Assembly: GCF_003015185.1 (NCBI RefSeq)
Contig: NZ_CP027861.1
Location: 1 to 64,000 of the forward strand
Reading direction: 5' to 3'
Length of the DNA: 64,000 bases
Source of the DNA: Ahniella affigens
GTDB taxonomy: Bacteria > Pseudomonadota > Gammaproteobacteria > Xanthomonadales > Ahniellaceae
The position numbers were made by a program, and so were the translations under genes. Within the stretch, counting starts at the first letter, position 1. Each line of letters starts with the position of its first letter. The notes below the pieces were generated by a model. The model was given only the letters and a program-made list of their open reading frames with translations. It made no database searches and was not told the DNA's origin. Shown here piece after piece: positions 2,361 to 53,745 of the stretch.

Positions 2361-2858
2361 TCAGCGGTTCTTTGTCGGATTCGCTTGCGGGGATGCCGGC
2401 GTGGGTGATGCTAGGCGCAACACTGGCGGCTCTTTGATGGCTGGGGCGCCGTATCGCCAGCGGCGTGCTTCCACTTCGGTGTAAACGTGAGATGCCGCGA
2501 TCAAATCGCCGTTTTCGTCTTCCCAGGGGGCGATCCAGATTCGAAGCATCTTGGCCTCTTCGCGGACTGGCTCCTCGCTTGGGACAGCGCCATTCGAGGT
2601 CGATGGAGCAGGAAGCAACACCAATTCGCCCTCTGCAGTCTCACTGACAGACATGTAGTCGGAGGTAGTGATGACTTCATTCCTCGGGGACTGCGCGCGG
2701 TCGCCAACTGCTGGCATATGGGATGCGCCATCCGTCTCGGCATAGACGGTCAGCGCGGATTTGCACGGTTGGCCTTCGGGAACGCCGCACGAGAATTTGC
2801 CGGAGCTGGCGCAACCAGCCAAAAGGCCGATGAAAAGCATTGAGAGCAGTCTGTGCAT
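2361..2858 (-). CDS. traV: TraV, outer-membrane lipoprotein of the T4SS core
   Basis: Lipoprotein that helps build the outer-membrane core with TraK and TraB. The ATG at 2858 begins MHRLLSMLFIGLLAGC, a signal peptide ending in a lipobox (LLAGC), with a purine-rich AGAGG upstream. Further cysteines (FSCGVPEGQPCKSAL) match the short Cys-containing segment typical of TraV just after the lipid anchor. The mature part is low-complexity and polar. It is the first gene after promoter module A at 2884-2937, giving a leader of about 19 nt, and is followed by traA and traC. Confidence 0.85.
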   Translation of the reverse strand: MHRLLSMLFIGLLAGCASSGKFSCGVPEGQPCKSALTVYAETDGASHMPAVGDRAQSPRNEVITTSDYMSVSETAEGELVLLPAPSTSNGAVPSEEPVREEAKMLRIWIAPWEDENGDLIAASHVYTEVEARRWRYGAPAIKEPPVLRLASPTPASPQANPTKNR

Positions 2859-2883
2859 TGCTGTGCCTCTGAGAATATGAGGC

Positions 2884-2937
2884 ACTGTAGCTGTGCACCT
2901 CAGAAGCCCTCCCGCGAAAAGCGCCTAGATTTTCGCG
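2884..2937 (-). promoter_or_regulatory. Promoter module A (putative FlhDC-like activator site) for traV-traA-traC
   Basis: Read on the minus strand, a perfect 8-bp inverted repeat (CGCGAAAA-N9-TTTTCGCG, 2913-2937) is followed by GGGAG, 19 nt and a -10 box TACAGT (2884-2889). There is no TTGACA-like -35. The predicted start site is near 2877, 19 nt before the traV ATG. It is one of eight modules with the same 54-bp geometry. That it binds the FlhDC-like pair is inference. Confidence 0.75.
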
Positions 2938-3122
2938 CTTTCTGCTTATCGATACTTTGGTCCTAGCTCGCGCCCCGTCCGCGCTAGTACAGTTGCTTGG
3001 TCGCTTGACGCGGGCCCGCTCGTGAGAGTGCTGAGCGCCGGTCTCGGCCCCCTGCCCCGCTGGTGCCGTTGGCAGAATCGGTCTTCCCCCTATGACCGAG
3101 CACTGTCAATTTGGAACCCGCG

Positions 3123-3923
3123 TCAGCGACGCTTCCTCTTCTGGGCTGAAGAAGGCTCCTTGTAGCCCATAAAGCTCCAAACATCGCTGTCGATCATGAT
3201 CGGCTGCATCGTCATCGGATTCAGTCGAAAGAACGTGCCGTGGGTGGAGATGCGGCCGTGCCGAAGTAGCGACCACAGCAAGTCGCTTGCCGCAATTGCA
3301 GCGACACGGTTGACTGGCCATGACTGCCGGGAGATTGCTTCCTCAGTGCTACAGGATGGCATCTCAGCGTCTACTGCATGCATGCGGCTCAGTTCAGGAA
3401 ACAGATCGAAGACGTTTGGCAATCGTGCTTGCCCCTCCTGGCACTTTCCAAGGTGTCCAAGAATCACGTTACCGCTGTCAGGGCCGTTGCCAAGATCAAG
3501 CCAGAGGGCTCGAGTGGTCTGGTTGCGGAAGCGGCTACCAAGGTCTGCACGAAACGAGGCTTTGTCTACCGCTGTAATGACCAAGTCACTTCTGGCGAGA
3601 CCATTCATCGCACGGCCATCGACATGCTTGGGACTTGCCTCCCAATCAACCTGATAGAAGGCATTGATTCGATGGCACAGCAGCACTGCCTTGTTGCAGC
3701 CGATGTCCTGTGCCGTGAATCGCTGGCGGCCCACATTCGAGTCCGACACGCAATCGCCATCTGCGATGCAAACCGAGAGTCCGGGGTGGCCTAGTCGCCG
3801 CAAAGTGCAGTCCATGCTTGCAAGCTGATCAGCCAGCTGTGAGCCAGTCCCGCCTGCACCGACAAGCATGATTGAGATGGGACTGCCCATCCAATGCTGT
3901 GGAACTCTGAACTCACCCTTCAT
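3123..3923 (-). CDS. PRTRC system ThiF family protein
   Basis: E1-like/ThiF-fold protein of the PRTRC cassette (ParB-related, ThiF-related cassette). ThiF relatives adenylate the C-terminus of a small carrier protein, but the substrate in PRTRC is not known. The nucleotide-binding glycine loop GAGGTGS is at residues 22-28, with an acidic strand end (IADGDCVSDSNVGRQ) and a DLVITAVD strand downstream. Cysteines in a PSCSTEEA motif near residue 200 could be the E1-type catalytic or structural site. It overlaps the JAMM-domain gene upstream by 4 bp, pairing an E1-like with a deubiquitinase-like protein. It is the last gene of the long traL-to-ThiF operon. Confidence 0.9.
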   Translation of the reverse strand: MKGEFRVPQHWMGSPISIMLVGAGGTGSQLADQLASMDCTLRRLGHPGLSVCIADGDCVSDSNVGRQRFTAQDIGCNKAVLLCHRINAFYQVDWEASPKHVDGRAMNGLARSDLVITAVDKASFRADLGSRFRNQTTRALWLDLGNGPDSGNVILGHLGKCQEGQARLPNVFDLFPELSRMHAVDAEMPSCSTEEAISRQSWPVNRVAAIAASDLLWSLLRHGRISTHGTFFRLNPMTMQPIMIDSDVWSFMGYKEPSSAQKRKRR

Positions 3924-4537
3924 GCAATGAGACCCTCTGAAATCATTCGATCAATGGAGTCCATGGCGAGATACGGGGCCAAGGCCAGACGAACGGCTAC
4001 TTGAGGCCGCTCGGATCGAAGGCGACCGACGACGAATGCCATGTACGGGCCACGCCGTGAGCAATCGGACTCATCGTCGGTGCGAGAGAAGAATGCATCA
4101 TGCTCACCATGGCTGTGCAGATCAACGACTAAGCGGTCATCGTTGACGACCGAATCCACATAGCGTACGTGGCCGCCTGAGGCTGATTGAACCTCTGGCC
4201 AAACCAATTCATAGTGACCTGCGTCGCCCAGGACAATCGCGGCGGCGATCTCGTTGGGGTAACTTTGCCGCGATGCACGAATGAAGTCCTTGATCAAGGC
4301 CATCGGGATCGGGCCGTTCGGAAGAACGATCCGTTCACAGCATTCGCCAAATGGCAGTTTCACCGGCGCCAGCTTCATGGTCACTTCCATGGCCTCTGTG
4401 GAGGACTGGACGTAAAGGCCATCTGCACCGGCGAGAAAGCGCTTTGCGCCTCGGTCAAGCGGTGCGAGGGTTCCAAATCGCGGCACGGGAATTAGGGGTG
4501 TCGCAGCGAAGAGAACCGCGTCAGTAGGGTGCGTCAT
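3920..4537 (-). CDS. PRTRC system protein A (JAMM/Mov34 metalloprotease fold)
   Basis: The protein carries a full JAMM zinc signature: HSHGEHDAFFSRTD at residues 141-154 fits HxHx7Sx2D, with an upstream glutamate near residue 96 (YPNEIAAAIV) placed as in the family. JAMM proteins cleave isopeptide or C-terminal peptide bonds of ubiquitin-like proteins. With the ThiF-like partner immediately downstream (4-bp ATGA overlap), this suggests a small-protein conjugation or processing pathway, but no ubiquitin-like partner is obvious here. It also overlaps protein B upstream by 4 bp, so translation is coupled. Confidence 0.9.
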   Translation of the reverse strand: MTHPTDAVLFAATPLIPVPRFGTLAPLDRGAKRFLAGADGLYVQSSTEAMEVTMKLAPVKLPFGECCERIVLPNGPIPMALIKDFIRASRQSYPNEIAAAIVLGDAGHYELVWPEVQSASGGHVRYVDSVVNDDRLVVDLHSHGEHDAFFSRTDDESDCSRRGPYMAFVVGRLRSERPQVAVRLALAPYLAMDSIDRMISEGLIA

Positions 4538-5358
4538 CGGCGTCTGTCCCCAGTCTGCTCGTGCCGCGAAGTCATGTAATTGAGCCAGTTGCCGAGGTTG
4601 GCGCAGAGAGGATTCAGCCAGTCATCGGGAATTCCATTCCCGTAAATCGTCTTGTCCATCCAGAACTCGGCGTCGGCGTGCAGCTTCTCGGATCGCTTAC
4701 CCTTCTTCGACTTTGAGGAGCCCGCCTTGAGCGTGCCGTTGTGGTTGACATGCGTGAATGCCGTATCGAACACAACTGACGACCAACCATCAATGTCCGC
4801 CACGTCTCCGGCCAGCGGTAGTCGCGCACTTCCGGTGCAGACACGCCCCATGCCGTCAACATTTCCAATTGGGGCATGGAACAGGGCAGTATTGCCGGTT
4901 GGCCGATTTGTCCCCGCAACTGCTGCAAGGAACAACTCTCGGTTCCGGACCAAGGCGACCAGGCTTGGCCACTGGGCGTCGACATGCTGCAACCCACCGT
5001 TGTGGGTCATGAGATGCATGGCCCGCCGCGTCGGTGGAAGCCACCAGCAAACGACCTCTTCGTCGCGAAAGAGTAGCGAATCGGGGTACACCGCTATTGG
5101 ACCTTGCGGCCGGCGCCCAGACAAGATGCGAATGATCTCGACCTCGTCCTGATGTGTCAGGGTCCGACCGGGTCCAACCACTGGAGCGTCTCGGTGGTCG
5201 GGAGTGACCGTGTGGGCGGTCACCAAGGCGAGCTTGTCCCGAATCGTGTGGAAGAAAAGAGCGTGCGTCGTCTTGATTTCATCGGCTCGATGCCGGAGAG
5301 CCGAACGGTGGTCGACATCAATGAGAAGGCTTCGAGACTTGGAGCGGCTGGTTGGCAT
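4534..5358 (-). CDS. PRTRC system protein B
   Basis: A 274-residue protein matching PRTRC protein B by order in the cassette and by its composition. The N-terminus is basic (SRSKSRS), and the mid region contains VCWWLPPTRRAMHL and LPLAGDVADIDGW segments. A basic SSKSKKGKRSEK stretch precedes the C-terminal WLNPLCANLGNWL. No catalytic motif of a known enzyme is visible and its biochemical role is unknown. The start at 5358 follows the stop of protein F by 42 bp, and the 3' end overlaps protein A by 4 bp. Confidence 0.85.
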   Translation of the reverse strand: MPTSRSKSRSLLIDVDHRSALRHRADEIKTTHALFFHTIRDKLALVTAHTVTPDHRDAPVVGPGRTLTHQDEVEIIRILSGRRPQGPIAVYPDSLLFRDEEVVCWWLPPTRRAMHLMTHNGGLQHVDAQWPSLVALVRNRELFLAAVAGTNRPTGNTALFHAPIGNVDGMGRVCTGSARLPLAGDVADIDGWSSVVFDTAFTHVNHNGTLKAGSSKSKKGKRSEKLHADAEFWMDKTIYGNGIPDDWLNPLCANLGNWLNYMTSRHEQTGDRRR

Positions 5359-5400
5359 TTCGCGTTACTCTTGATTCAAATTGGTCGTTGGGTGGAGCGC

Positions 5401-6732
5401 TTAGCCACCGGGCTGCCGCTTCGCGTTGTCCCTGAATGCCTTCGCAACCAGAGACACGGCTGCAGCGGCAATCGATGCATCCCAGACAACTCTGTCAAGC
5501 AACGTCCCGATGCGCAATTTCGAGCTTTCGGCGAGCCAGATTGTCAATTCGTCGGGGCCGCACGATTGATAGGTCTGCTCGCAGACATAGTCGAAGAAGC
5601 TGTCCATACCGGTTCCGGTCGGCTGCATGCACGCTGGAAACAGTCCACCATCGTCGCCGTATTGCTCGATCAGGTCTTTGCTAGGCAGGGTACGCCTTCT
5701 AGCCGCAACGCTGGCGAGTGTGCTCAGTCCCTCAATGAGCCAGGCGAATCGTGATCGCTGCGCCGATAGTGTTGTGCGCTTTCGCTTCCTCGGGCGAGCG
5801 GCTCGTAAACGTGCTCCCGTGTCGTGGAAGTATTTGAGACACTTCAAGACGCTCTCATAGTCGGATTGATCCTCGACATCGAAGCCCGCCTCTGATCCGA
5901 TGTCTTGTGCCTCATTGAACGAGACCCTGGGAAGTCCGTCCTTCCACAGGCACTGATGAGATGCGTCAATCAGGCACTCAGCCGGATAGCCGCAAAGCGT
6001 CTGCAGGGCGCGCTGGGAGCTTTCGAGCATCGGCCACTGCAACTGCGCGACCACGCGATCCCAGGCAGCGCATACGGCATCGTGTTCAGCACCATCAGTG
6101 AGGCTTGTCGGGCAGGATACGACGAGGGTACCGCAGGCCTGCACTTGAACTTTCGGAACCTGATCGAGAATCAGGTCACCGTGGTAGGTGACCTTTTCGG
6201 ATGGATACAACGCGGCCCAGAGCGCCCCCGGAAGGACATAGTGCGTGGGCTCAAGTTTTAGGCCAGGAGGCAGTGTTTCAAGAATTGGGGCAGAGACGCG
6301 CCGCGTTCGGTTTACCCAGGCTCCACAGATTGTCCCAATCGCGTGTCGCGATGGTAGCGTTGCGCGCGCGAGCGCTCGACACGCTGACTGGCTGAGATCG
6401 CCGGACTCACCGAGCGACTCGATCAGCTCCAACAGGGCATCTCGTGCTGAACTTGAGACGACGATTGCGCTAATGTCACCTGGAAGCAATGATGATGGGA
6501 GTCGAGGAACCCTTGGGACACGGTCAGCGGCCAGCTGCGCGACCCCACAATCGCCAGCGCGAAGCGCATCGAGTACCGTTTTTGGCGCGAGCCAGCCAGC
6601 AGTCATGGCCTTCATTAGCTCAGCGGCTCTGTGTCCGCGTTGCGAGTGGGACGGGGCCAGTGTGGCCATCGCGACACTGCGAGCTAAGCCTTCAGCTACG
6701 CTGGCTTCAAAGCGTGGGAGGGTCAGGAGCAT
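5401..6732 (-). CDS. PRTRC system protein F
   Basis: A 443-residue protein in the position of PRTRC protein F. It is mostly alpha-helical in appearance, with a basic segment RPRKRKRTTLS around residues 315-325 that could contact nucleic acid or a partner. No enzymatic motif is recognised and the role in the system is unknown. Its ATG overlaps the TGA of protein C by one base (TGATG), indicating coupled translation. Assignment rests on gene order and family resemblance. Confidence 0.82.
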   Translation of the reverse strand: MLLTLPRFEASVAEGLARSVAMATLAPSHSQRGHRAAELMKAMTAGWLAPKTVLDALRAGDCGVAQLAADRVPRVPRLPSSLLPGDISAIVVSSSARDALLELIESLGESGDLSQSACRALARATLPSRHAIGTICGAWVNRTRRVSAPILETLPPGLKLEPTHYVLPGALWAALYPSEKVTYHGDLILDQVPKVQVQACGTLVVSCPTSLTDGAEHDAVCAAWDRVVAQLQWPMLESSQRALQTLCGYPAECLIDASHQCLWKDGLPRVSFNEAQDIGSEAGFDVEDQSDYESVLKCLKYFHDTGARLRAARPRKRKRTTLSAQRSRFAWLIEGLSTLASVAARRRTLPSKDLIEQYGDDGGLFPACMQPTGTGMDSFFDYVCEQTYQSCGPDELTIWLAESSKLRIGTLLDRVVWDASIAAAAVSLVAKAFRDNAKRQPGG

Positions 6733-7133
6733 CAGGCCAGCGGCACATCGAAGGCATCGCGTACAGGCGAATCTGCACGTCGCGAAACCTGGTCAACCCG
6801 ACTGAAGACAAGGTGCCAAGCAGGACTCGGCTGAACCATGGCGGCCGGGGCGTCAGACCATTGTTTTACCGCGCCAATCGCCTTTCGGAGGAGCGTTTTG
6901 TCGGCGGGCTGGCGATTCGACGCACCTTTGACCTGAACCTCCGGCTTCAGGACGGGATACACCAAGAAATCGCCTTGGATGGTAGGCTCTCCCAATCGGG
7001 CCGTGGCAAGGAAAGGGTAGTTGGGCTCGAAGAGGCGCAGGGCGTCTTGCGGCGTCAGGCTCGGAGCCGGGTCATCCAACCGGGTGGCACCGAACTGAAA
7101 CTGGCGCTTGAGTACAGCGATCGTGGCAGTCAT
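6732..7133 (-). CDS. PRTRC system protein C
   Basis: The first 70 residues (AVLKRQFQFGATRLDDPAPSLTPQDALRLF and YPFLATARLGEP, then GDFLVYPV) match the short PRTRC protein C family, which resembles a small mobile-element antirepressor-like domain. The protein is longer than the usual 70-80 residues: about 60 extra C-terminal residues include DKTLLRKAIGAVKQW. The gene lies 8 bp downstream of protein E and overlaps protein F by one base. Function is unknown. Confidence 0.83.
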   Translation of the reverse strand: MTATIAVLKRQFQFGATRLDDPAPSLTPQDALRLFEPNYPFLATARLGEPTIQGDFLVYPVLKPEVQVKGASNRQPADKTLLRKAIGAVKQWSDAPAAMVQPSPAWHLVFSRVDQVSRRADSPVRDAFDVPLA

Positions 7134-7141
7134 TGGTGGCC

Positions 7142-7660
7142 TCAGTCGAAGATCGATGCTTGGGTTGGGCCTGCATTCTGCCCCGCAGGTTCAATGCCAG
7201 AAGCGGCGTCCTCGTTGGCATCGACTTGGCCGTCCTGGTCGCCTTCCGCTTCACCATCATCGGTAGGTGCTTCGCGCTTCACGCCTTGCTTTGAGGGCGA
7301 CTTGGAGGCCGCTGAAACAGCCTTCTGAGGCGCAGGGGACTTTGCGGCCTTCGTAACAGTGGCCAATTTGCTCGCGATATCCGAGAGTGAGTCGATGGCT
7401 GGGATACGGGCGGCTGTGTACCGGGACATAGCAGATTCGAAAGCGGCGTCGATATCGGTACCTGCGGCGACGACGATTCGCAATGGCATGGCGAGCGCGG
7501 ATTGAAGCGCTGCGCGTCGCGGGTCCTTTGTATCGGGATCGACCCCGGATAGCTTCGAGGTGATCAGAATTTCAGTATTGGACACCGAAGGTTTCGAGAT
7601 CGTCACCGAGACGGATTCCGAACCATGGAGCAGCGCGTGCAAGTCTTGGAGGAATGACAT
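7142..7660 (-). CDS. PRTRC system protein E
   Basis: The protein begins MSFLQDLHALLHGSESVSVTIS and continues with a compact conserved domain (about residues 1-100), which matches PRTRC protein E. The rest is an Ala/Lys/Pro-rich linker and an acidic tail (DDGEAEGDQDGQ), probably disordered, ending in QASIFD. I chose the ATG at 7660 because it leaves a 41-bp gap after parB and begins at the conserved domain. The ATG at 7726 would add a non-conserved 22-residue extension overlapping parB. Role unknown. Confidence 0.82.
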   Translation of the reverse strand: MSFLQDLHALLHGSESVSVTISKPSVSNTEILITSKLSGVDPDTKDPRRAALQSALAMPLRIVVAAGTDIDAAFESAMSRYTAARIPAIDSLSDIASKLATVTKAAKSPAPQKAVSAASKSPSKQGVKREAPTDDGEAEGDQDGQVDANEDAASGIEPAGQNAGPTQASIFD

Positions 7661-7701
7661 GTGTGTGTTCTGACTGTTGGTGGGTGCTTCCCTGCCAGTG
7701 T

Positions 7702-9681
7702 TCACCGCAGGGCCTGTTTTCGCCAATTCGCGATTTGCATCGTCAGACTTGATGGAACAAATGAATCAAACCCCGGGTACTTCGCATCAAGGACTGCTTT
7801 CACGATGTCGTCTTTGCGACCGGCGAGCATCGCGTTGTAACGCTTCTCCCCGCCTTCCTGACCCCGCATCCAATCAGCGAACTTGCTTTGCTCCAAGAAA
7901 TCCTCAAGACCCGCCTTGGTATGCGCTTCGAGAAAGGCCTTGTCGATCAGGACATGACTGCTAAGGGCGCTTGGGCTGTCGTCAATCAAGAGTGCCGCCG
8001 CTGCACGACGATCCAATCGCCGGTTGGCGCCGGTTTCTGAAGGCTTGCGATCAAAGAGCGCGATTGCAGTTCGCTGCAGCGCTGCCTCAAGATCGGGCTG
8101 GCTCATCTGGGCGAGTGCCGCTGGAAGATGAGAGTGACCCTGTGAGCCTGTGCGCGGCTTGCCAGGGAGCTTCAGTTGCTTGAACACCGCTTCGGCGCCA
8201 TCCCGTCCAGTCTCGTCAGCAACGACGCGCGCAAGCGCATAGACAGCTAGCGCAAGCTGGCGTCTTGGATCAGAAGCCAGCTGAGCAGCAATCACCCGAC
8301 GGACTGTGGCTGCATGCTGGTCAACCACTGCCGCCGGACTCGCCTTGATCTGTGGTCTCTGCGGCTTCTTCGCCTTCACTGCCTTCTTCGCGGCAGCCTT
8401 GGTTGGGCGCTTCACGGTTGCCGCACCGTTTGCCCGGTCGGAACTGTCCTGCTCGTCACCTGCAGGACTTTCGTCTTCAGATACTCCCTGATCAATCGAC
8501 GCCAGGTGTCCCTGGTAGGCGGCGACCTTTTTGGCGTAACAAGGTGAGTCAAAGCACAGTGGTGCCTCGACGTGGCCAGTGGTCGGCCCGAGTAAGTCAT
8601 CCAAGATGGCACCTCGGTGCTTGCACGCGCGACAGGCGCCGAACTGTTCGGGACCGACGCCGTTCGGACCTTGGACGACCAGAGGAATGGCCCGGCCGGG
8701 CGGCTTCTCGGTGCGCAACGCTACGATGCCATAGTCTTCCCTCAAGCTCGACACCTTCAGTTGCAACGCCTTGTTCGTGTGCGCAGCAAAACAGGCTCGA
8801 TTGGTGCACCGAGCATCGCCGACATGGGTCTCAAATAGCTCGGCTTGAAGGCTGCTGTTCGAAGGGCAGGTATTGCAGCCCGCAGCGCTGCGATCAAAAG
8901 TGGCGTGGCTGAGCGGAAGCGAGAAGCCTTTCACCTGCTCCCGCAGTTCGTCAACGGCCATATTGCGTTCCAGTACGCGCGGCAGTGCTTTGTCTTGCAT
9001 CTCACGCGGAACAGTTGCGAGCAACTCGGCGTGTGCCAATGTGATCCTTTCCTCTCCCAAGGCATCCATGACTTGGTCTGAGCAGTGCAACAGGCGTAAG
9101 CGGTGGCGGAGCTTCTTTAGGCTCCAGCCGAGCGCATTGGCCGCACTTTCGTGATCACCCTCGTACAGATCGACGATATCCTGAGCGCTGAGGGCTTCAT
9201 CGGCAACAGACAGTTCGTCGCGACAGAGATTTTCGAGCAAGGCCAACAAGCGCGCATTCTGATCGTCCACGTCGCGCACGACGCACGGCAAGTCGTCGAA
9301 GCCGAGCTGCCGGCAGGCTCGGAAACGCCGCTCGCCAGTGACCAGTGCAAACCCAGGGCCGGATGGGTTCGGCCGGACCGTGATGGCCTGGATTAGGCCG
9401 TGCTCTTTGATCGAGTCAACCAGGCGCTCGAATGAGGACTTCCTAAATGTCCTGCGCGGATTGTGGCCAGGGAGGACGATGATCTGATTGAGTGGGATCC
9501 GAGTGATGGTTGCACTGATGTCATCTTGGGACACAGAACTGCTCCTAATTTTGCGGGCTCTGCGCTCGGACGGTTTCAGGATTGGCTTCCGAGTGCGTGT
9601 CTCATTGACGATTACCATCTGTTCGACGCATCGCAATTTCGCCACACTTATCGTGCGAGGCACGAACTGCGGCTGGTTCAC
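7702..9681 (-). CDS. PRTRC system ParB-family protein
   Basis: Large ParB-like protein of the PRTRC cassette. The ParB/sulfiredoxin domain (about residues 55-150) has NPRRTFRKSSFERLVDSIKEHGLIQAITVRP and TGERRFRACRQLG, the ParB boxes I and II that bind CTP in this family. A ParB-type HTH region follows (AANALGWSLKKLRHRLRLL). The middle holds cysteine clusters (CNTCPSN, CRACKHRG, CTNRACF) that probably bind zinc, and a basic Lys/Ala-rich linker. The frame opens with a GTG at 9681; an ATG at 9618 is the alternative start. Unusually it sits 18 bp after a pseudokinase gene inside the tra operon. Confidence 0.9.
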   Translation of the reverse strand: MNQPQFVPRTISVAKLRCVEQMVIVNETRTRKPILKPSERRARKIRSSSVSQDDISATITRIPLNQIIVLPGHNPRRTFRKSSFERLVDSIKEHGLIQAITVRPNPSGPGFALVTGERRFRACRQLGFDDLPCVVRDVDDQNARLLALLENLCRDELSVADEALSAQDIVDLYEGDHESAANALGWSLKKLRHRLRLLHCSDQVMDALGEERITLAHAELLATVPREMQDKALPRVLERNMAVDELREQVKGFSLPLSHATFDRSAAGCNTCPSNSSLQAELFETHVGDARCTNRACFAAHTNKALQLKVSSLREDYGIVALRTEKPPGRAIPLVVQGPNGVGPEQFGACRACKHRGAILDDLLGPTTGHVEAPLCFDSPCYAKKVAAYQGHLASIDQGVSEDESPAGDEQDSSDRANGAATVKRPTKAAAKKAVKAKKPQRPQIKASPAAVVDQHAATVRRVIAAQLASDPRRQLALAVYALARVVADETGRDGAEAVFKQLKLPGKPRTGSQGHSHLPAALAQMSQPDLEAALQRTAIALFDRKPSETGANRRLDRRAAAALLIDDSPSALSSHVLIDKAFLEAHTKAGLEDFLEQSKFADWMRGQEGGEKRYNAMLAGRKDDIVKAVLDAKYPGFDSFVPSSLTMQIANWRKQALR

Positions 9682-9699
9682 ATTGAGCTGAGCGCGTCG

Positions 9700-10515
9700 T
9701 TAGTTGAAGAGCTTGCGCCACCAATTCACCAAGGTATGGGTCTGGCCTCGCCCAATTGCATGACGCAGCGCTACAGCGAACTGGTTTGCATCTTTGAAGC
9801 GCCTGTGAACGTCGGTCGCGAGTGCGCGGGCGCAAACATCGCGGAGTGAGTTTGGTACGTGGCGGAGAAGTCGAGTACTGATCGCCGACTCGGTTCCTCC
9901 TGCCGCACCGGTCCAGCACAAGCGCAGCAGCGCCCCAAGCTGATAGACATCGGTTGCTGGCGTCAACCTTGAACCAAGCAGCCACTGTTCGGGAGCCGCC
10001 ACGGTGGCGTCGACCGGCAGCCGCGTGCACTCAGCCTGACCGTGCCGCAAATGACGTGATGTTCCGAGATCCAGGAGAATCGGCGCCGCGTCGCCGAGCA
10101 CGATGTTGCGTGGGGACAGTCGAAGGTGGACGATGCCATGGTGGTGCAGCAGTCCCACTGATTCGGCTAGGGAGGCGACAATACTCGCCGCCTCGACGGG
10201 GCTGCGTTGCCGATCATCAAATGGGCCGAGCAGCGTCCGACCAAAAGCGAGCGGCGTGACCACGTAGGGGACCTTGGCAAAGATGCCGGTGGCGAGCACT
10301 TCGAGGATCGTCGGAGAGGCAATGCTGATCCTGGCTGGGTCGAATCGATCCAAGTCTGGGTCGGACAGGAACTGGATTGCCACTGGCATCCGACTTGCGC
10401 GCTGAATTCCACGGTAAACCGGCCCATGGCTGCCTTCAGCCACGTGTTCGATGAGATCGAATGGACCCAATTTTGCCCGGGCGGGGACTGGGAGAGTGGC
10501 GGCAACTGCATTCAT
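9700..10515 (-). CDS. Protein kinase-fold protein, probable pseudokinase
   Basis: The sequence follows a Hanks-type Ser/Thr kinase: glycine loop AEGSHGPVY (26-34), beta-3 strand VAIQ (45-48), catalytic loop HLRLSPRN (130-137), DLG in place of DFG (149-151), APE (174-176) and the helix-F aspartate in ATDVYQLG (189). The beta-3 lysine is Gln and the HRD aspartate is Arg, so phosphotransfer is unlikely although the fold and the metal-binding Asp/Asn appear kept. It lies between traB (31 bp upstream) and PRTRC parB (18 bp downstream) in the same operon. A regulatory or scaffolding role for the T4SS or the PRTRC system is inference. Confidence 0.8.
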   Translation of the reverse strand: MNAVAATLPVPARAKLGPFDLIEHVAEGSHGPVYRGIQRASRMPVAIQFLSDPDLDRFDPARISIASPTILEVLATGIFAKVPYVVTPLAFGRTLLGPFDDRQRSPVEAASIVASLAESVGLLHHHGIVHLRLSPRNIVLGDAAPILLDLGTSRHLRHGQAECTRLPVDATVAAPEQWLLGSRLTPATDVYQLGALLRLCWTGAAGGTESAISTRLLRHVPNSLRDVCARALATDVHRRFKDANQFAVALRHAIGRGQTHTLVNWWRKLFN

Positions 10516-10546: not shown

Positions 10547-11659
10547 TCAACCTTGCTTCGGGCGCTCGACCATCTGAAGGTGAGCTCCGGTCACTAGCGC
10601 AAACGTCACCTCGCGAGCACTGGACACTTCCAGAATCGGCGAAAGCTGATCAGCCTTTTCAATGTAGAACTCTGCGACGCGATCGAGCGACGACGAGAGC
10701 CCTCTTCCGCCTGCCTGAGAAAGGACATCCCCACTGCCGGGCGTCACGAAGGTGGTGCCTTGGCCCAAAGCCTGGCTCGCACCCTCGGCGATGCCGGCCA
10801 GCGTGGCTAGACCAATTGCTCTGCCCTGTTTGCTGACAAGCTTGCCACGCAATCCAACTTTGCCATCCTCACCGACTGCAATTGCTTCGAGCTTGATGTC
10901 GAGGACGGCCCCATCCTGCCTAACACACGAGAGGTTCTCTGATCTCAACATGACGCGCTCGGACGAGAGATCGCCGTAGCCAGCTGCTGTCAGAAAGCAC
11001 TCTCGGACGTCAAAGCGGAAGCGATTGGGAAGGATCGCGTCATGCTTGATTCGGACCACAACGGGCTGAGGGTTGCGGATTGCGGCTGATGCTGTGCTGG
11101 CGTCGAGCCCGTAAAGCAGCTTGCCGGTGACCAACGTCCCTGCAGGCAAGTACGAGTCCGCTTCGGCTGCTTCGTCAGCCATCGCGGTTGGCTCGGTTGC
11201 TGGTTCAAGATCGTCCTCGATCGTTTGAAAAGCCGGTGGCGGTGGCAACGGTACCGGTGCTGGCGCGACCATTGCTTGCGGTGACGAAGCAGAAGAGCCG
11301 CCGGTGGCTGTCTTTGCCTCGCGCATGCCACGGAGCTCGTCCTGCAGCAACTGCAGCTCCGCTCGGAGTGACGCGACTTCTGGGTCCTCGGTCGGGACAG
11401 TGACAGGTTGGGCCTGACGCTGTTCTTCGACCGTCTTTCGAAGCTTGTCGAGCTCGGCTGAGATCGCTGAGAGGCCCAAGTCCTTCGGATTAGCTGGCGT
11501 GAGCACGTTCGCCACTGACTCGGGTCCCCTGTCCGGCACCGCCGGCTTGTCGCTTGAAAAAAGGACGACCGTCAGAGCGACACCCAAAAAGCCCACGCCG
11601 ACAATGGCGTTGCGCTTTCCTTGCGGGGTCAATTCCTCAAACTTCTTCCGAATGCTCAT
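10547..11659 (-). CDS. traB: TraB, T4SS core protein bridging inner and outer membranes
   Basis: VirB10-like protein. From the ATG at 11659 there is a short cytoplasmic N-terminus, one membrane helix (GVGFLGVALTVVLF), a coiled-coil stretch (LDKLRKTVEEQRQ to LQDELRGMREA), a proline-rich segment (APVPLPPPPAF), then the conserved beta-barrel region (LPAGTLVTGKLLYGLDAS to the C-terminus). The start overlaps the traK stop by 4 bp (ATGA), which is why the longer frame from 11770 is rejected. Order traL-E-K-B is the usual one. Confidence 0.93.
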   Translation of the reverse strand: MSIRKKFEELTPQGKRNAIVGVGFLGVALTVVLFSSDKPAVPDRGPESVANVLTPANPKDLGLSAISAELDKLRKTVEEQRQAQPVTVPTEDPEVASLRAELQLLQDELRGMREAKTATGGSSASSPQAMVAPAPVPLPPPPAFQTIEDDLEPATEPTAMADEAAEADSYLPAGTLVTGKLLYGLDASTASAAIRNPQPVVVRIKHDAILPNRFRFDVRECFLTAAGYGDLSSERVMLRSENLSCVRQDGAVLDIKLEAIAVGEDGKVGLRGKLVSKQGRAIGLATLAGIAEGASQALGQGTTFVTPGSGDVLSQAGGRGLSSSLDRVAEFYIEKADQLSPILEVSSAREVTFALVTGAHLQMVERPKQG

Positions 11660-12633
11660 TCCGTTGACTCCACGAGTGACGGTCTGGCGCGGGCGCCAGA
11701 CAAGGCAGGGGTTCGATAAACAAACATGAGCTCTGCGCTTCCTGATGGCGGCAGGAGCGCCGATGGCCACATGGCGATGGCTGCTACGTCGCGATCTGCG
11801 CAGGAGGCCTCGTCAAGCTCCAAGACGCCAGATGATGTGTTCTCAATGCGAGCGATCACCACCATCATTTCGCCACCAGTCACCACTTGGGATGGCACGA
11901 AGGCGAGACCAGGTACCGCGCAGCGCGGTGCGGGATACAGGTCCGGCTCAAATGCTGACAGCGAATATCCGGGTGGAATCTCGCCGGTTGCAAGGTCCCT
12001 CAACAGGGACCGGAGAGCTAGAATGTGGGACGGCGCTTTGCCTCGCGAAATTGGGCCGGCAGCGGCGACGTAGCCAGGTACCGACAACTCGACCTGGACC
12101 GGTGGAACATCAGGATGCGGCCGGATCAATAACCCGATCGTGCGCCGTGGATCCGATTGGTCTTCGATATACAGTGCGAACGGCGTGGTGTCGGTCGGTG
12201 AGACGTAGATGACCTCGCCTTGCTTGCGGACCGTCGCGGTAGATTGGTGTTGGATGCGGATTGCCTTGAATGGCGCAACGAATCTATTGACCTGTCCAAG
12301 TCCGACCGAGATGGACACAGTGCGTCCGAACTCGACATCCACTTTCGGCTTCGGCACCGTTGGTGCAACCAACGGCCTGCCTGGAGAGCTTGGGACAGCG
12401 GTGCCAAGCCTGGCACGCTCCTCGGCTACCAGGCGATCAATGTCATCCAGGTCGAGTTGCGCTCCTGGTTGGGAGATTGTTGCTGTCCCTGTCGTCGTAC
12501 TGCTCTGCGTTTTCGAATTAGCCGCAGGCTGGCTCTGGAGTTTGATCGGCAGGCCAGGCACTGCCATCTGGTCCGCCCGTGCTGTGGAGTTGGCCAACGC
12601 CAACGTAACGAATAGGGCAAAAAGTGTGCGCAT
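11656..12633 (-). CDS. traK: TraK, secretin-like T4SS outer-membrane-associated protein
   Basis: VirB9-like secreted protein of the core complex. Starting at the ATG at 12633, it has a signal peptide MRTLFALFVTLALANSTARA. A variable, Gln/Thr-rich linker leads into the TraK domain (VSISVGLGQVNRFVAPFKAIRI), typical of the family. The C-terminal part has CAVPGLAFVPSQVVTGGEMMVV. A purine run GGATGGAG precedes this start; the in-frame ATG at 12645 is also possible. It lies between traE and traB and is translationally coupled to traB. Confidence 0.92.
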   Translation of the reverse strand: MRTLFALFVTLALANSTARADQMAVPGLPIKLQSQPAANSKTQSSTTTGTATISQPGAQLDLDDIDRLVAEERARLGTAVPSSPGRPLVAPTVPKPKVDVEFGRTVSISVGLGQVNRFVAPFKAIRIQHQSTATVRKQGEVIYVSPTDTTPFALYIEDQSDPRRTIGLLIRPHPDVPPVQVELSVPGYVAAAGPISRGKAPSHILALRSLLRDLATGEIPPGYSLSAFEPDLYPAPRCAVPGLAFVPSQVVTGGEMMVVIARIENTSSGVLELDEASCADRDVAAIAMWPSALLPPSGSAELMFVYRTPALSGARARPSLVESTE

Positions 12634-12650
12634 GGCTCCATCCATTGGTC

Positions 12651-13226
12651 TTAGCGATTGACGGTGAGGCGACTGTGATCATCGGAAACCGACAGCGCGT
12701 CCAGCATCGGCTGATGCCCCACTACGACAAATTTGAGTCGGAAAGTCCGGTAGGTCTGTTGCTCTACGGCGGTGACACCTCGTGTGATGAGCAATCCGCC
12801 GATCTCGACGGTGTCGGTCTTGGCGTCATACGACGCATCCGTAGCCTGGAAATTGGTGGTCAGTTGCTCTTCGCGAATCTTGATTGCTTCCTGCTGCAGG
12901 TTTTGCAGGTAGGTCTGATACGCCCTTGGTGTTACAAAGCGGCCGATGGCACGCTCAACAAATGCAGCATTATTCGGACTTACGTTCCCCAACAGCCCAG
13001 AAATGTAGAGGCCAAAGGCCAGCTTGGTCTCCTGTGAAGCGTCAGCGTCCTGGATAACGAGTTCGTCCGCACTGGCTGACGGCGGCAGATGAATCGTAAT
13101 GTCTCGATTGACGGCGGCAACCGCCAGCAGGAGATTGAGCACTACGGATACGCATAGGGCGATCTTCGTCCAGGTCGCGGCCCGAAGCTGCTCACGGCTC
13201 TTTGCGAGAAAGTCAGCGGCGCGCAT
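12651..13226 (-). CDS. traE: TraE, inner-membrane T4SS protein (VirB5/VirB8-like position)
   Basis: Bitopic inner-membrane protein needed for pilus assembly. The ATG at 13226 begins MRAADFLAKSREQLRAAT, followed by one membrane helix (IALCVSVVLNLLLAVAAV) and a periplasmic domain with the conserved FVTPRAYQTYLQNLQQEA and later QTYRTFRLKFVV. The start is two bases after the traL stop. The longer frame from 13304 would overlap traL and is rejected. About 190 residues is the usual TraE size. Confidence 0.92.
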   Translation of the reverse strand: MRAADFLAKSREQLRAATWTKIALCVSVVLNLLLAVAAVNRDITIHLPPSASADELVIQDADASQETKLAFGLYISGLLGNVSPNNAAFVERAIGRFVTPRAYQTYLQNLQQEAIKIREEQLTTNFQATDASYDAKTDTVEIGGLLITRGVTAVEQQTYRTFRLKFVVVGHQPMLDALSVSDDHSRLTVNR

Positions 13227-13228
13227 GG

Positions 13229-13513
13229 TCAGAGCGGGTAGATTGCGCGAACGAACGGGAACTTGGCGAGCCGACCTCTGGCGCCGCCGAATCCATACCA
13301 CCACAGCATATGCAACAAATAGCCATCGGGCCGGGCGTTGCGGAACTTCCGCGTGACATACACAAGCGCGATCGCAGCAAGAATACTGACGACCAGGAAA
13401 TTGAATGCAATTCCGGCGCCGATCATGCAGACGGCTGGGGCAGCCTCGTCGGCGCGCAAGAACAGAAATTGGGTCGGGACATCGACCATCGTGGGAATTC
13501 TGGAATCGGACAT
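13229..13513 (-). CDS. traL: TraL, small inner-membrane T4SS protein
   Basis: A 94-residue protein starting MSDSRIPTMVDVPTQFLFLRADE, with a hydrophobic pair of helices (VCMIGAGIAFNFLVVSILAAIALVYV) and a C-terminal FGGARGRLAKFPFVRAIYPL, which matches TraL of F-type systems. A strong ribosome-binding site AGGAGG precedes the ATG at 13513. It is the first gene after promoter module B, with a predicted leader of about 15 nt. Confidence 0.93.
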   Translation of the reverse strand: MSDSRIPTMVDVPTQFLFLRADEAAPAVCMIGAGIAFNFLVVSILAAIALVYVTRKFRNARPDGYLLHMLWWYGFGGARGRLAKFPFVRAIYPL

Positions 13514-13534: not shown

Positions 13535-13588
13535 ATGCTACGCCCCGTCGTCAGTAGCGCTCCCGCGCAAACCGAGGGTTTTTTCCGT
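13535..13588 (-). promoter_or_regulatory. Promoter module B for the traL-to-PRTRC ThiF operon
   Basis: Minus strand: half site TTTGCGCG at 13564-13571 with a weaker partner half at 13581-13588 across a 9-bp spacer, then GGGAG, 19 nt, and -10 TAGCAT (13535-13540). The gene-proximal half is well kept while the distal half is degenerate. The predicted start site is near 13528. Confidence 0.72.
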
Positions 13589-13638
13589 CTTTTCCGCTGA
13601 TCACCGGGCGCAAACGATCACTTGGCCCTAGGCTGAGT

Positions 13639-14339: not shown

Positions 14340-14525
14340 TCAACTATTGGCCAAGTCATCACCGATCACTCGGGCGAGACGCGCCATAGCAGTTGGGTCA
14401 GTATTCGCAAGAACCTGGACGTCGCACAGCTGATTGGTCGAACACATCACTAACCAGCACTCCTGGCCAGCCTTCCAACAATCCTGCAATACGGAGAGCG
14501 CCTCAGTGAGTGCTCGGAGTCTCAT
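14340..14525 (-). CDS. Small uncharacterised protein (61 aa)
   Basis: The ATG at 14525 overlaps the tnpB stop by 4 bp (ATGA). The product, MRLRALTEALSVLQDCWKAGQECWLVMC..., has three Cys and two Trp and resembles no family I know. It may be a resident gene whose upstream region was replaced by the TnpB element, or a chance frame. The next gene starts 150 bp downstream. Confidence 0.4.
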   Translation of the reverse strand: MRLRALTEALSVLQDCWKAGQECWLVMCSTNQLCDVQVLANTDPTAMARLARVIGDDLANS

Positions 14526-15946
14526 CCAGACCCCACAGCAACCCGATCCGTTCGGGTCTTGCGGGGTCGGCTCAGGCGCTTCGGCCTTGCGGCTCTTGCA
14601 CCTAAGTTTTCGTCGGTGGGTTCACGCTTCCGCGAGGTCGGCAGTCCGTCTGGCGATGTTCTGCCAAGCGCTGCCGCGGCCTCTCCGCGTGCGTCACTTT
14701 CCCCGCTCCTCGGGGTAGCCGGCGACGACGCTGCGATCAGCCGCAGCGCCTCGGTCCGGATGTTTTTCGCCGCGTTCTCGTCGCGGTCGTGTTCCATGCC
14801 ACAGGCCGGACAGACCCAGCGGCGGTCCTTCAGTTTCAGGGCGGCGTGAATGGCACCACACGCGCCACAGGTCTTGCTGCTCGCGTAGAACCGATTCACC
14901 GCGATCAGCTTGCGCCCGTGCCACCCGGCTTTGTAGGTGAGCTGCCGGCGCAGTTCACCGAGTGCAGCGTCGGCGACCGAGCGACGAAAGGCCTTGCGGC
15001 CCATGCCCCGGCTCATAGCCTTGACCGCGAGGTCCTCAATGCCGATGACCTGTGCCTCGCGCACCACGGCCGCACTGGCTTGGTGTAAGGCGTCACGGCG
15101 CAGGTCGGCCACCTGCGCGTGCAAACGCCCAATCTGCCGCTGCGTCTTGCGCCGACGATTCGAACAGCCGAGCCGTACGCCCTTCGGGCAAGGCTTGGTG
15201 GGATCCAGACCCTGGGCACGCATTTGCGTCTCGATCTGCCGCGACTGCCGCCTCTGGTAGCGGCGCAACCTGGCCTGCTTGCTGGCCAGCGCCTTGGGCG
15301 CCGGAACGCGGCGAGTGACGTGACCATCGGCGATGACTAGGAGATCCCTCAGTCCAGCGTCCAGACCGACCGCACCAACGGCGGGAGCATGAACTACCGG
15401 TCGCGCAATGCCATCGGCGGTGACGGCACCGTGCCAGCGTCCGGCACTGTCACGCGACAGCGCGATACTACGCAGACGGCCATTGAGTGCTTCGGTGCGG
15501 CGTAGCTTCAGACTGCCAAGGCCAGGCAGATCGACAGTCGCCCACCGGCCACCGGTGTCTCGTACCTGCCGGCGGCGCTGGTCAAGGGTGAAGCGCACCG
15601 AAGCATTTCCACCGCGGCGTTTGAACCGGGGATAGGCCGCGCGCTTCGCGAAGAAGTTCGCAAACGCCCGCTCCTGATCGCGCAGCACCTGGTTGAACGG
15701 GTCTCGCGGCAAGGCCGCGAGCCAGGGACGCTCCGGGTCGCGCCGGTATTCGGTGAACTCGCGCGAAAGGGAGACCCAGTTCAAGCGCTCGCCCCGCTCG
15801 CGGTACGCGCTGGTTCGCTTGGCCAGCGACCAGTTCCACACGTGCCGGGTGGCACCGGCCAGCTGCGCGAGCAAGCGCGCTTGCTCGGGGGTCGGGTAGG
15901 CCCGCATGCGATAGGCGCGGGAAAGTGTCGACGATGTATCAGTCAT
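14522..15946 (-). CDS. tnpB: TnpB, RNA-guided RuvC nuclease (transposon-encoded)
   Basis: From the ATG at 15946 (MTDTSSTLSRAYRMRAYPTPEQ) the protein has the TnpB N-terminal helix-turn-helix and wedge region. The RuvC active site follows: VGLDAGLRDLLV (first Asp), IGIEDLAVKAM (Glu) and HDRDENAAKNI (last Asp). Between them is a four-cysteine zinc finger (CGACG, CPACG). All catalytic residues are present, so the nuclease is probably active. TnpB cuts DNA next to a target-adjacent motif, guided by an omega RNA. The C-terminal tail is Arg/Ser-rich, as usual. The start at 16039 would add an unconserved 31-residue extension. Confidence 0.9.
   Translation of the reverse strand: MTDTSSTLSRAYRMRAYPTPEQARLLAQLAGATRHVWNWSLAKRTSAYRERGERLNWVSLSREFTEYRRDPERPWLAALPRDPFNQVLRDQERAFANFFAKRAAYPRFKRRGGNASVRFTLDQRRRQVRDTGGRWATVDLPGLGSLKLRRTEALNGRLRSIALSRDSAGRWHGAVTADGIARPVVHAPAVGAVGLDAGLRDLLVIADGHVTRRVPAPKALASKQARLRRYQRRQSRQIETQMRAQGLDPTKPCPKGVRLGCSNRRRKTQRQIGRLHAQVADLRRDALHQASAAVVREAQVIGIEDLAVKAMSRGMGRKAFRRSVADAALGELRRQLTYKAGWHGRKLIAVNRFYASSKTCGACGAIHAALKLKDRRWVCPACGMEHDRDENAAKNIRTEALRLIAASSPATPRSGESDARGEAAAALGRTSPDGLPTSRKREPTDENLGARAARPKRLSRPRKTRTDRVAVGSG
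14524..14660 (-). ncRNA. Putative omega RNA overlapping the tnpB 3' end
   Basis: In this family the guide RNA is transcribed from the 3' part of tnpB through the right end. Here the last codons contain a GC-rich imperfect stem (about 14528-14567). The exact ends and guide segment cannot be set from one copy. This is inference from the family. Confidence 0.3.
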
Positions 15947-16230
15947 GCCCAAAGCATCGCCCGAATTCGTCGCACCGGGTGAGACAGCGCACCACAAAGC
16001 CGTCGGCCGTCCGCCTCTCTGCGCCGCATCGCCCGCCAATTGATGGCTGGCGACATTACGCTCCGCAATGACTCTCGCGCCGGCGGGGTCTTCGTCATCC
16101 CTGACTCATGCATGGTGTACTCGTCCGTTCTCAACGTGCAGGGTTCGGGTCCGCGCATAGTTTGCATCCAGGTACTGCTCACTCCCACCCTCGCCTGCGA
16201 ATGAGTGGTCCGCAAGTTCGGCGCTTCTGT

Positions 16231-49442: not shown

Positions 49443-50258
49443 TCACTCGATAGGTGAGGTAGAAATTTCCGCTGCTATGCCCCGGGTAATCGCGCCGGCA
49501 GCGAGCGTGAGGATCTGTTGCGGCCCCTGTGGCCTCGTTGGTGTTACATTTTGCCACGTTCCGGGCAACTCGCGCTGAAGGGCGTCGATCGTTCCGACTC
49601 TGTCGCCAATCCCTTGTTCGCGCGCTGCGCCCGCGGTGATCAGTGCCCCTTGTTCAGTTTCGGGGGCCAGGTTCAGTTTTGGCCTTTGACCGGCGATGTC
49701 GCTTCGAAACTGGGCTGACGCTGCTGAGACCAGTCGCTCGATGCTCGCTCTCTCGGCTTCGCTGAGGGTGCGCAGCGGAGATCCTGCCAGTTTCAGCGGC
49801 CCAGAGGCAATTGACTGGTCTGCCACGCCTACAGTTTGTGCGAAAGACGCCCAGGACGTCATTGGCTTCACGATGCCCATTCCTCCGACCAAGGCATACG
49901 GGTCGAGGATGACCTCATTTCCTGCCGTTAGGGGTAGGAGTGCTGCCGACGCGGCCACACCCTCTGCGACGGTGTAGACAGTTCGATGGCAGGCCCTAAG
50001 CGCCGAGGCGATGCGGGCAGCTTCTCCGGGACTGCCGCCCGGGGACGTTATGCGGACGACCATGGCTCCTTCATGCATGCAGTGGTCACGGATGACCGGG
50101 ACCCATTGGTCTGCCAACACATCGGTTCCGATCGCGCCGTCGAGGTCCATTTCAACGACCTCCGGCTGGGTATCGCCGAGGTTGCGCCAGAAGCCCCACG
50201 CAATGACAGCGGCCAGCGCGCTGATGGCCACCGTAGACCATGTTTGGCTACTGGTCAT
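49443..50258 (-). CDS. S49-family (SppA-like) serine protease
   Basis: Membrane-anchored peptidase: N-terminal anchor (VAISALAAVIAWGFW), then ITSPGGSPGEAARI (oxyanion region), AEGVAASAALLPLTAGNEVILDPYALVGGMGIV with the nucleophile Ser, and SGPLKLAGSPLRTLSEAERA with the likely catalytic Lys, as in SppA. At 271 residues it is the short single-domain form. GGGAGG precedes the ATG at 50258, which overlaps the previous small gene by 4 bp. It may process pilus or signal-peptide fragments; this is inference from its operon. Confidence 0.87.
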   Translation of the reverse strand: MTSSQTWSTVAISALAAVIAWGFWRNLGDTQPEVVEMDLDGAIGTDVLADQWVPVIRDHCMHEGAMVVRITSPGGSPGEAARIASALRACHRTVYTVAEGVAASAALLPLTAGNEVILDPYALVGGMGIVKPMTSWASFAQTVGVADQSIASGPLKLAGSPLRTLSEAERASIERLVSAASAQFRSDIAGQRPKLNLAPETEQGALITAGAAREQGIGDRVGTIDALQRELPGTWQNVTPTRPQGPQQILTLAAGAITRGIAAEISTSPIE

Positions 50259-52252: not shown

Positions 52253-53284
52253 ATGAGTCGAAAAGTGTGTATGGGCTTGGATATCGGGTACGGATACGTG
52301 AAGACCGCTTGGACTGAAGGCTCTGGAGAGTCGCACGTTCACATCATGCCGTCCGGTGCTGCGCTGGCGAGTTTGTTGCCGGCGGATGCGTCAGGTGGGC
52401 GGAATCTGTGTGGCGGGGTGGAGGTTCTCGTTGAGGGCGAGGTGTGGGTTGCGGGAGCAAACCCTGGAGAGTTTCAGGCCAGCGTGCGCCAACTCCATGC
52501 TGACTACGCGGCGACGAATGAGTACTTGGCGCTGGCGTATGCAGCAATTATCAAGAGCGGCCAGCAGGTGGTGGACGAGCTTGTGACCGGTTTGCCGATG
52601 TCGCACTACCTTGATCCAGAGCGAAGGGCACGACTGGTGAAACGGCTTACGGGGAAGCATCCGGTGCGTGGTGGACGTACAGTCACCGTGGAGCGAGTGA
52701 GCGTGGTTCCGCAGCCAATGGGAGCGGTGTTCCTGGTTCTCGGTTCTGCAGGGTCCGGGAGAATGGACCGGGAGCTGGTCAGTCGAATCGCTGGCCAGGC
52801 AACGTGCACCTTGTCGATCGATCCTGGGTTCTACTCGACTGACTATGTCGTCGTGAAGAACCGTGGCATTCGTGATCGTAGCGCCGGAACATCGACCGTG
52901 GCGATTTCGGCTGTGCTTGATGAGACGGGTAAGCGGATCGCCGCTCGGTACCAGGGGGTGCGCGTATCGCGGGAACGCCTTGAGCTGGCGCTACGTGATG
53001 GCACGAAGGATCTCCTCGTGGGCAAGTTTACGATTCCGTTTCGCGAGATTCTCGCTGATGCAGCGGCTGAGCTCGGGCGCCGGTTATCGGTCGAGATTCT
53101 TGAGAGCATCCGTGGGGAGGAGGCTGTCGATGTGGTTCTCCTTTCCGGGGGCGGTAGCGCGCTGTTCGATGAGCAGCTGCGGGGCGCTTTTCCAAATGCG
53201 CTGGTTCACGTCGTCGAGAGTCCGCAGTTGGCGAATGCGCGGGGGTTTCTGGCTCGGGCACGTGCTGCTGCCGGGGTTTCGTGA
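52253..53284 (+). CDS. PRTRC system protein D (actin-like ATPase, ParM/StbA family)
   Basis: Actin-fold ATPase: phosphate loop 1 GLDIGYGYVKTAW (residues 8-20), phosphate loop 2 LSIDPGFYSTDYVVV and the adenosine-binding VVLLSGGGSALF near the C-terminus. Members polymerise to move plasmids apart. The 343-residue length is typical. Its stop overlaps the next start (TGATG). It lies 43 kb from the rest of the PRTRC cassette, in a separate plus-strand operon with a small protein and a ParB-like protein, so it may serve as a second segregation module. Confidence 0.88.
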   Translation: MSRKVCMGLDIGYGYVKTAWTEGSGESHVHIMPSGAALASLLPADASGGRNLCGGVEVLVEGEVWVAGANPGEFQASVRQLHADYAATNEYLALAYAAIIKSGQQVVDELVTGLPMSHYLDPERRARLVKRLTGKHPVRGGRTVTVERVSVVPQPMGAVFLVLGSAGSGRMDRELVSRIAGQATCTLSIDPGFYSTDYVVVKNRGIRDRSAGTSTVAISAVLDETGKRIAARYQGVRVSRERLELALRDGTKDLLVGKFTIPFREILADAAAELGRRLSVEILESIRGEEAVDVVLLSGGGSALFDEQLRGAFPNALVHVVESPQLANARGFLARARAAAGVS

Positions 53285-53736: not shown

Positions 53737-53745
53737 GGGCGCCCG

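Follow-up and report, generated by a model that had tools for sequence, protein, structure and literature searches.

The window analyzed here is the first 64,000 bases of contig C2 (149,386 bases) of Ahniella affigens, whose genome comprises two contigs and 6.12 Mb. Within it, a PRTRC cassette extends over 3123..9681, between the conjugation genes traB and traV. All genes treated here, except that for the so-called protein D, lie on the minus strand. From upstream, their order is traL, traE, traK, traB, a kinase-like open reading frame (ORF), parB, E, C, an F-position gene, B, A and thiF; a gap of 237 bp, measured to the listed GTG start of traV, separates thiF from traV, which is followed by a gene for a TrbC/VirB2-like pilin. 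From traB to thiF, the genes overlap or leave gaps of no more than about 42 bases. A first-pass annotation of this DNA had placed the cassette on one strand between traB and traV. The PRTRC cassette is indeed co-directional between these genes, and ThiF, A, B, C and ParB match PRTRC or Pfam models in place on the minus strand. The annotation missed the kinase-like ORF of 271 amino acids between traB and parB, and its gene list stands less well for E and C, which score below NCBIfam cut-offs, and for the F position, which has no family match.

ParB (7702..9681) scored 381 bits against TIGR03734 (cut-off 279) and the E1-like PRTRC ThiF (3123..3923) scored 233 bits against TIGR03736 (cut-off 145). 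Proteins A and B also exceeded their PRTRC cut-offs, with 140 versus 102 bits on TIGR03735 and 146 versus 131 bits on TIGR03737, respectively. Protein A (3920..4537) is a JAMM/JAB protease in which a DUF2016 N-terminal domain (PF09436, 5.4e-20) precedes the protease domain (PF14464, 2.4e-11), and protein B (4534..5358) is E2-like (PF14460, 1.3e-27). Protein C (6732..7133; 133 amino acids) is a predicted precursor of a ubiquitin-like protein (Ubl); it reached 43 bits on the Pfam Prok_Ub model PF14454 (cut-off 25) and about 35-36 bits on TIGR03738, below the cut-off of 46. The E-like protein (7142..7726), for which an in-frame ATG near 7660 is the likelier start, scored 26 bits on TIGR03741 (cut-off 38). 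The F-position protein (5401..6732) shares 25% identity with its positional counterpart in a Dyella locus and is helical in a low-confidence model (mean predicted local distance difference test score (pLDDT) 52.7).

Conserved residues of the cassette proteins

We compared loci in which both ThiF and C were detected, giving 100 rows in a first set and 13 in a second, 113 in total; loci in which C was not detected were left out (24 of the 124 in the first set, and L139 and L140 of the 15 in the second). The first-pass annotation had noted a complete JAMM zinc motif in A beside ThiF, and this was borne out: E96, H141, H143, S151 and D154 are all present and were kept in 85 of 85 rows. In B, C174 and N166 were found in 113/113 rows and H203 in 110/111. 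ThiF carries a candidate catalytic cysteine, C191, in all 112 aligned rows, and D55, N63, R66, Q67, K78 and D120 were conserved in 113/113. The conservation of N63, R66 and Q67 is partly a matter of selection because 88 of the 113 rows came from two scans with ThiF peptide patterns, one of which was NxGRQ. ThiF thus retains E1 adenylation residues, and it aligns with NEDD8 E1, ThiF, MoeB and Cap2 chains.

The section on type 6d in the survey by Iyer, Burroughs and Aravind (2006; PMC1779556) describes operons with a Ubl, a JAB protein with an N-terminal domain, an E1-like protein, an E2-like protein and a helical protein. The domain order of A matches the JAB protein with an extra N-terminal domain of that type, and B has its E2-like feature, a conserved Cys with a downstream His. 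By its gene content, the cassette is assignable to Ubl operon type 6d. The annotation had called ThiF beside a JAMM protease typical of small-protein conjugation systems; this reading is supported in that E1-, E2_D, JAB and Prok_Ub families are all present, and it had already been predicted for type 6d in PMC1779556.

Cassette composition varies among the loci. The closest ThiF in the genome scan (58%), from Aquimonas voraii (L022, 8443-10762), stands in a 20.8-kb locus with only B, A and ThiF; C, E, F and ParB were not found there by the models made here. ThiF precedes C in L014 (11998-12789), and a small ORF lies between A and ThiF in L015 (11703-11918). A lean cassette, E-C-B-ThiF, in which A and F were not detected, occurs in the viral-collection contigs L103, L106-L109, L112 and L113 and also in L115-L117, L119, L121 and L129.

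The tail of protein C and the JAMM protease

The annotation had proposed looking for a carrier with a C-terminal Gly among the small proteins nearby. Protein C is such a candidate, with a conserved Gly that is here internal (G70 of 133). The codons of K69-G70, the predicted point of cleavage and conjugation, lie at 6924..6929, and those of the 63-residue C-terminal tail at 6735..6923. At the final aligned pair, 97 of the first 100 C rows have KG and one has NG, the other two (L026 and L104) being Gly-ended as well; the 13 later rows have KG, NG or RG. The aligned relatives of C fall into three states: those ending exactly at the Gly, those with tails of 2-13 residues and those with tails of 59-78 residues. 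The long tails comprise the window type together with those of Xanthomonas, Rhodanobacter and Dyella, which are related to one another in sequence. In the structural model, mean pLDDT is 95-97 over blocks of residues 11-60, 80 over 61-70 and 60 over 71-80; that is, a confident core with Lys-Gly at its end is followed by a low-confidence linker, helices (at 71-76) and a disordered end, the tail as a whole being mostly helical.

Tails were seen together with A. Tailed C occurred in 66 of 85 rows with A and in 0 of 28 rows without it; dereplication, in which rows of equal state were merged at a ThiF identity of 72%, left 42 rows, and the counts were then 11/19 and 0/23. Some states were assigned manually: L026 and L104, being Gly-ended, count as "no tail", and all 13 rows of the second set were scored in this way, with the tail of L142 (about 69 residues) recorded as 60. 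The 113 rows contain at least one duplicate, as L141 is apparently the contig of L057 once more (equal length and matching C end), and most rows without A come from the viral contig collection and are contig fragments. For 20 complete plasmids, the search for A covered the entire record: 11 lacked A and none of these was tailed, and five of the nine with A were tailed. On pTTS12 of Pseudomonas putida S12, a laboratory PRTRC plasmid, A was not found and C stops at the Gly. In the 28 rows without A, the A model had no match around the cassette, and the only match of a relaxed JAMM pattern was an unrelated-looking HCHHC stretch in L104. An apparent tailed locus without A, L093, was rejected, as B and A are fused there in one ORF (8553-9914).

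The 11 dereplicated tailed forms bear on where the tail begins. Across ten of them, no column of the 70 is invariant apart from K69 and G70, and the eleventh (L142) likewise has KG. Ala or Ser directly follows the Gly in 57 of 64 tailed rows. Common descent would explain these two features, the sole invariance of an internal Lys-Gly and the residue next to it, less easily than the link between tail and protease.

Long tails after KG that are unlike that of the window in sequence were seen in L142 (8554 onward) and L124 (7430-7873), both loci having a JAMM gene. The Ubl ends in Asn-Gly instead of Lys-Gly in L026, L028, L130, L131 and L133-L135, all without A. A Prok_Ub search in 398 genomes of the phylum gave five matches including that of the own genome, too few for a wider tree.

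Proposed transcription unit and conjugation module

The tra genes upstream of the cassette code for TraL (13229..13513; PF07178, 4e-16), TraE (12651..13304; PF05309, 3.8e-22), TraK (11656..12645; PF23536, 3.1e-9) and TraB (10547..11770; PF03743, 2.8e-32), and TraV (PF09676, 8.5e-18) is coded downstream of it at 2361..2885, with an ATG at 2858 as the likelier start. A 33-base module, AAAGCgCGAAAAAA-n7-TTTnCGCGGGA, has 13 copies on C2, and in 10 of them TAnnnT starts exactly 19 nt downstream. A pattern search allowing up to three mismatches found ten module sites on C2 and no site on the other contig; the reversed pattern, used as a control, had no match. The copies start at 2909, 13560, 21319, 23137, 28170, 42622, 51885 and 60959 in the window and at 68750, 83050, 107857, 136571 and 142513 on the rest of C2. 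The copy at traL (13560..13592, minus strand), with TAGCAT exactly 19 nt downstream, is the presumed start of a unit running from traL through the cassette, and the copy of the traV unit (2909..2941, minus strand) lies inside the gap between thiF and traV. Since no copy was found between 2941 and 13558, we take the unit bounded by these modules to be traL-E-K-B, the kinase-like gene and the PRTRC genes. Having its own copy, traV need not depend on read-through; a single obligatory unit running through to traV was therefore rejected. We also rejected an activator of the AcaCD/FlhC type for the module, since no FlhC match was found in the genome.

The annotation had further suggested that the cassette is expressed with transfer. 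Expression together with the transfer apparatus is plausible, as the cassette lies between two copies of the plasmid-wide module and downstream of the traL one.

A comparison of gene order with 21 PRTRC plasmids, as the annotation had advised, found nesting between traB and traV in none of them. A TraB/VirB10-type match was present in all 21 (16 above cut-off) and never adjoined the cassette. The closest cases were a broken TraB about 7 kb from the cassette of Thiodictyon and an unbroken one about 19 kb away in Pseudoalteromonas spongiae, where ThiF has traC and traV on the opposite strand at a distance of about 3-6 kb. Nearness of PRTRC to tra genes thus has parallels, but no second case of a cassette nested co-directionally between traB and traV was seen; as all 21 plasmids were chosen by ThiF similarity, the comparison may have missed other arrangements. 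At the search level used, 378 of 72,556 plasmid records carried a relative of PRTRC ThiF, the weakest of them being generic ThiF proteins. In 100 related genomes and the own one, the ThiF search gave, besides the own copy, only one weak partial match (E 4.2e-4), so these hosts do not have the cassette in common.

The placement might be a neutral insertion in which the PRTRC genes run from their own promoter, unrelated to transfer. The absence of the cassette from beside traB in the 21 other PRTRC plasmids fits this reading, as does the traV module, which lets the downstream genes run alone. It sits less well with the short gaps and overlaps from traB to thiF and with the coding strand between traB and parB, where no sigma-70-like site was found, or with the lack of a module copy inside the unit. 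We regard a neutral insertion as possible but unlikely.

We consider it probable that the locus encodes a plasmid-borne Ubl conjugation module with a precursor tag, whose genes are the last of the transcription unit beginning at traL. Protein C would consist of a beta-grasp Ubl core ending in K69-G70 and the mostly helical tail. Protein A would cut pro-C after G70, and ThiF would then adenylate G70, as its conserved ATP-site residues suggest. From there, G70 may pass to C191 of ThiF and then to C174 of B, to judge by the conservation of these residues. B would attach C to target lysines, and A could also remove it. As guesses, ParB may provide a scaffold bound to DNA or be itself a target, and E and F may act as adaptors. 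The cassette would be transcribed as the distal part of one unit from the traL module promoter, with traV using its own copy. A further-reaching version, in which cutting of pro-C by the JAMM protein leads to Ubl tagging of transfer or partition proteins (ParB, relaxosome or recipient proteins) and also frees a helical peptide with a role of its own, all of it being induced together with the pilus genes and modulated by a pseudokinase, seems improbable to us.

Several results weigh against the conjugation module with a precursor tag. The sub-threshold NCBIfam scores of C and E are among them. A is present without a tail in 19 of 85 rows and must have another task there. The ThiF trees show only 4-5 changes of state for tails and for A, and tests of independent pairs were not significant (median p 0.5 and 1 in two runs), with no pair in the opposite direction; the link between tail and JAMM protein is confounded by common descent, and the tree tests are underpowered. 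Over its final 13 residues, the modelled tail has a pLDDT of 43-52. A Foldseek search with the C model gave no confident match, the best E being 0.15 with unrelated chains, and in a second structural alignment Z reached 4.6 at most, mostly with ubiquitin-like chains; the model of C is thus weakly ubiquitin-like. As for transcription, co-directional order is no proof of one transcript. A sigma-70-like site lies inside B at 5132-5160 (the region has three such sites against 3.3 in its shuffles, not above chance), and several terminator-like sites occur within the unit, also in numbers not above chance. In ten PRTRC loci from other hosts, the module matrix did not score above 13; most of these loci have no tra operons, so they speak neither for nor against a tra promoter link outside this plasmid.

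Alternatively, the tail is never removed and C is a two-domain adaptor with the internal Lys-Gly as a structural hinge. Conservation of the tail in C of Xanthomonas, Rhodanobacter and Dyella would agree with this, as it may thus have its own function, and so would the position of Lys-Gly at the junction of core and tail in the model. Against it, tails of differing sequence and length (2 to 78 residues) all begin after the same Gly, and no tail was seen where A was not found. We give this alternative little credence.

Equally doubtful is a partition or stability module in which ParB sits at a centromere and ThiF and C carry sulfur or modify a small molecule, like ThiF/ThiS, instead of proteins. 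In its favour, parB opens the cassette and is its largest gene, ThiF weakly matches thiamine ThiF models too, and the relevant parts of PMC7466150 and PMC4465626 count PRTRC genes among partition genes. Such a module would not account for an E2-like protein with near-invariant Cys, Asn and His next to a complete JAMM protease, and no rhodanese or other sulfur-transfer partner was matched among the proteins from ThiF to the kinase-like ORF. An anti-phage or anti-plasmid defence system merely riding in the tra unit is likewise improbable: Bil and Cap2/Cap3 are defence systems of like chemistry, PADLOC E1-E2 models match ThiF weakly and those of PD-T4-6 match the kinase-like protein clearly, but no PADLOC model was matched by A, C, E or the F-position protein, B has only a weak Cas8f match, and the cassette is typical of large plasmids (the 378 records above).

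C-terminally extended Ubl proteins that are cut after a Gly are familiar from eukaryotic ubiquitin precursors and pro-Atg8, which are processed by other types of protease and are not known to be cut by a JAMM protein of the same operon. With type 6d as treated in PMC1779556, the cassette shares a Ubl with a conserved Gly, a JAB protein with an N-terminal domain, an E1-like protein, an E2-like protein with a downstream His and a helical protein; its ParB is that of the PRTRC models. The 6d Ubl is described there as small with a highly conserved C-terminal Gly, and the JAB protein of such systems was predicted both to process and to remove the Ubl. The cassette differs in that C is a predicted precursor with a 63-residue tail, in the position between traB and traV and in the pseudokinase before ParB. 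The Bil system (BilABCD) also combines a Ubl, E1, E2 and a JAMM protease, and its JAMM enzyme opens the C-terminal Gly of BilA before conjugation; it differs in that BilA has two Ubl domains and BilD is described as an E1 pseudodimer with a Cys domain, and ParB is not mentioned in the portions of PMC11354881 that describe it. No model named Bil was among the matches listed for the cassette, and the C model has one Ubl core. In CBASS, according to the pertinent parts of PMC10097602, Cap2 works on a single C-terminal Gly with E1/E2 chemistry and Cap3, a JAB protein, cuts after that Gly; the substrate is a cGAS-like enzyme and not a beta-grasp Ubl, and E1 and E2 are fused.

In the open-licence literature, we found no paper on the function of the cassette, nor any account in print of the long tail of the precursor, of the lack of tails in loci where A was not detected or of the nesting between traB and traV; text matches to "PRTRC", as far as the matched text goes, partly concern plasmids pRtrCIAT899 and not the cassette. 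The type of system is known. The tail makes the role of a widespread cassette testable with a yes-or-no question, that is, whether A cuts C after G70. Trypsin would be expected to leave a single Gly (+57.02 Da) on a modified lysine, which equals the carbamidomethyl mass added by iodoacetamide; therefore, routine proteomics could overlook the conjugates. The placement between traB and traV provides a natural setting in which to look for a link between tagging and transfer.

Protein D and neighbouring genes

The annotation had described an actin-like protein D, coded at 52253..53284 on the plus strand, as a PRTRC member split off from the cassette. This was not supported. The protein is a ParM/StbA-type actin that scored 143 bits on TIGR03739, below the cut-off of 214.8 and below the 177 bits of ParM from plasmid pRA1, and its plasmid matches are among proteins annotated as ParM/StbA, that of pRA1 included. 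PRTRC ThiF was not found in pRA1; this empty answer alone means little, and the same query recovered the own copy. D matched 1,381 plasmid records versus 378 for ThiF. Among the 21 PRTRC plasmids, TIGR03739 had a match in 16, never beside the cassette, and was above cut-off in just three, so D is a poor feature of membership. Distance from the cassette is thus the rule in PRTRC plasmids, and D as a displaced cassette member was rejected on its scores and on its remoteness in all 16. In the ten plasmids with D at 100 bits or more and TraB above cut-off, D lies about 12-31 kb from TraB; it is about 13-105 kb from ThiF in nine of them and 201 kb in the tenth, a linear record. The distances in the window are about 40 kb from traB and about 48 kb from ThiF. 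In Azotobacter plasmid pAcX50f, PRTRC D likewise stands apart from the other PRTRC genes, going by the gene numbers in the relevant part of PMC4465626. Downstream of parM, at 53281-54567 (plus strand), a 151-amino-acid ORF without a family is followed by a gene for a ParB-HTH protein; as a ParB-HTH protein is also present there, we read the D locus as a separate, second segregation locus.

The kinase-like ORF between traB and parB (9700..10515; PF00069, 2.1e-10) was aligned with an RSK2 chain. The Lys of VAIK is replaced by Gln (VAIQ), the HRD Asp by Arg (HLR), and DFG reads DLG. With the catalytic Lys and the HRD Asp, features of active kinases, both absent, we call the product a predicted pseudokinase. 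It also matches kinases in the PDB and clearly matches PADLOC models of the PD-T4-6 kinase (1.9e-22). Against the 72,556 plasmid records, five matched with at most about 34% identity (Streptomyces, Pseudoalteromonas and Bosea), and among the loci of both sets the pseudokinase model matched only the window.

Just upstream of the traL unit, at 14522-16039 (minus strand), lies an ORF that, by its motifs, looks like an IS605-type TnpB. A protein with an SppA-like peptidase domain is coded at 49443-50258 (minus strand), with an NCBIfam score below cut-off.

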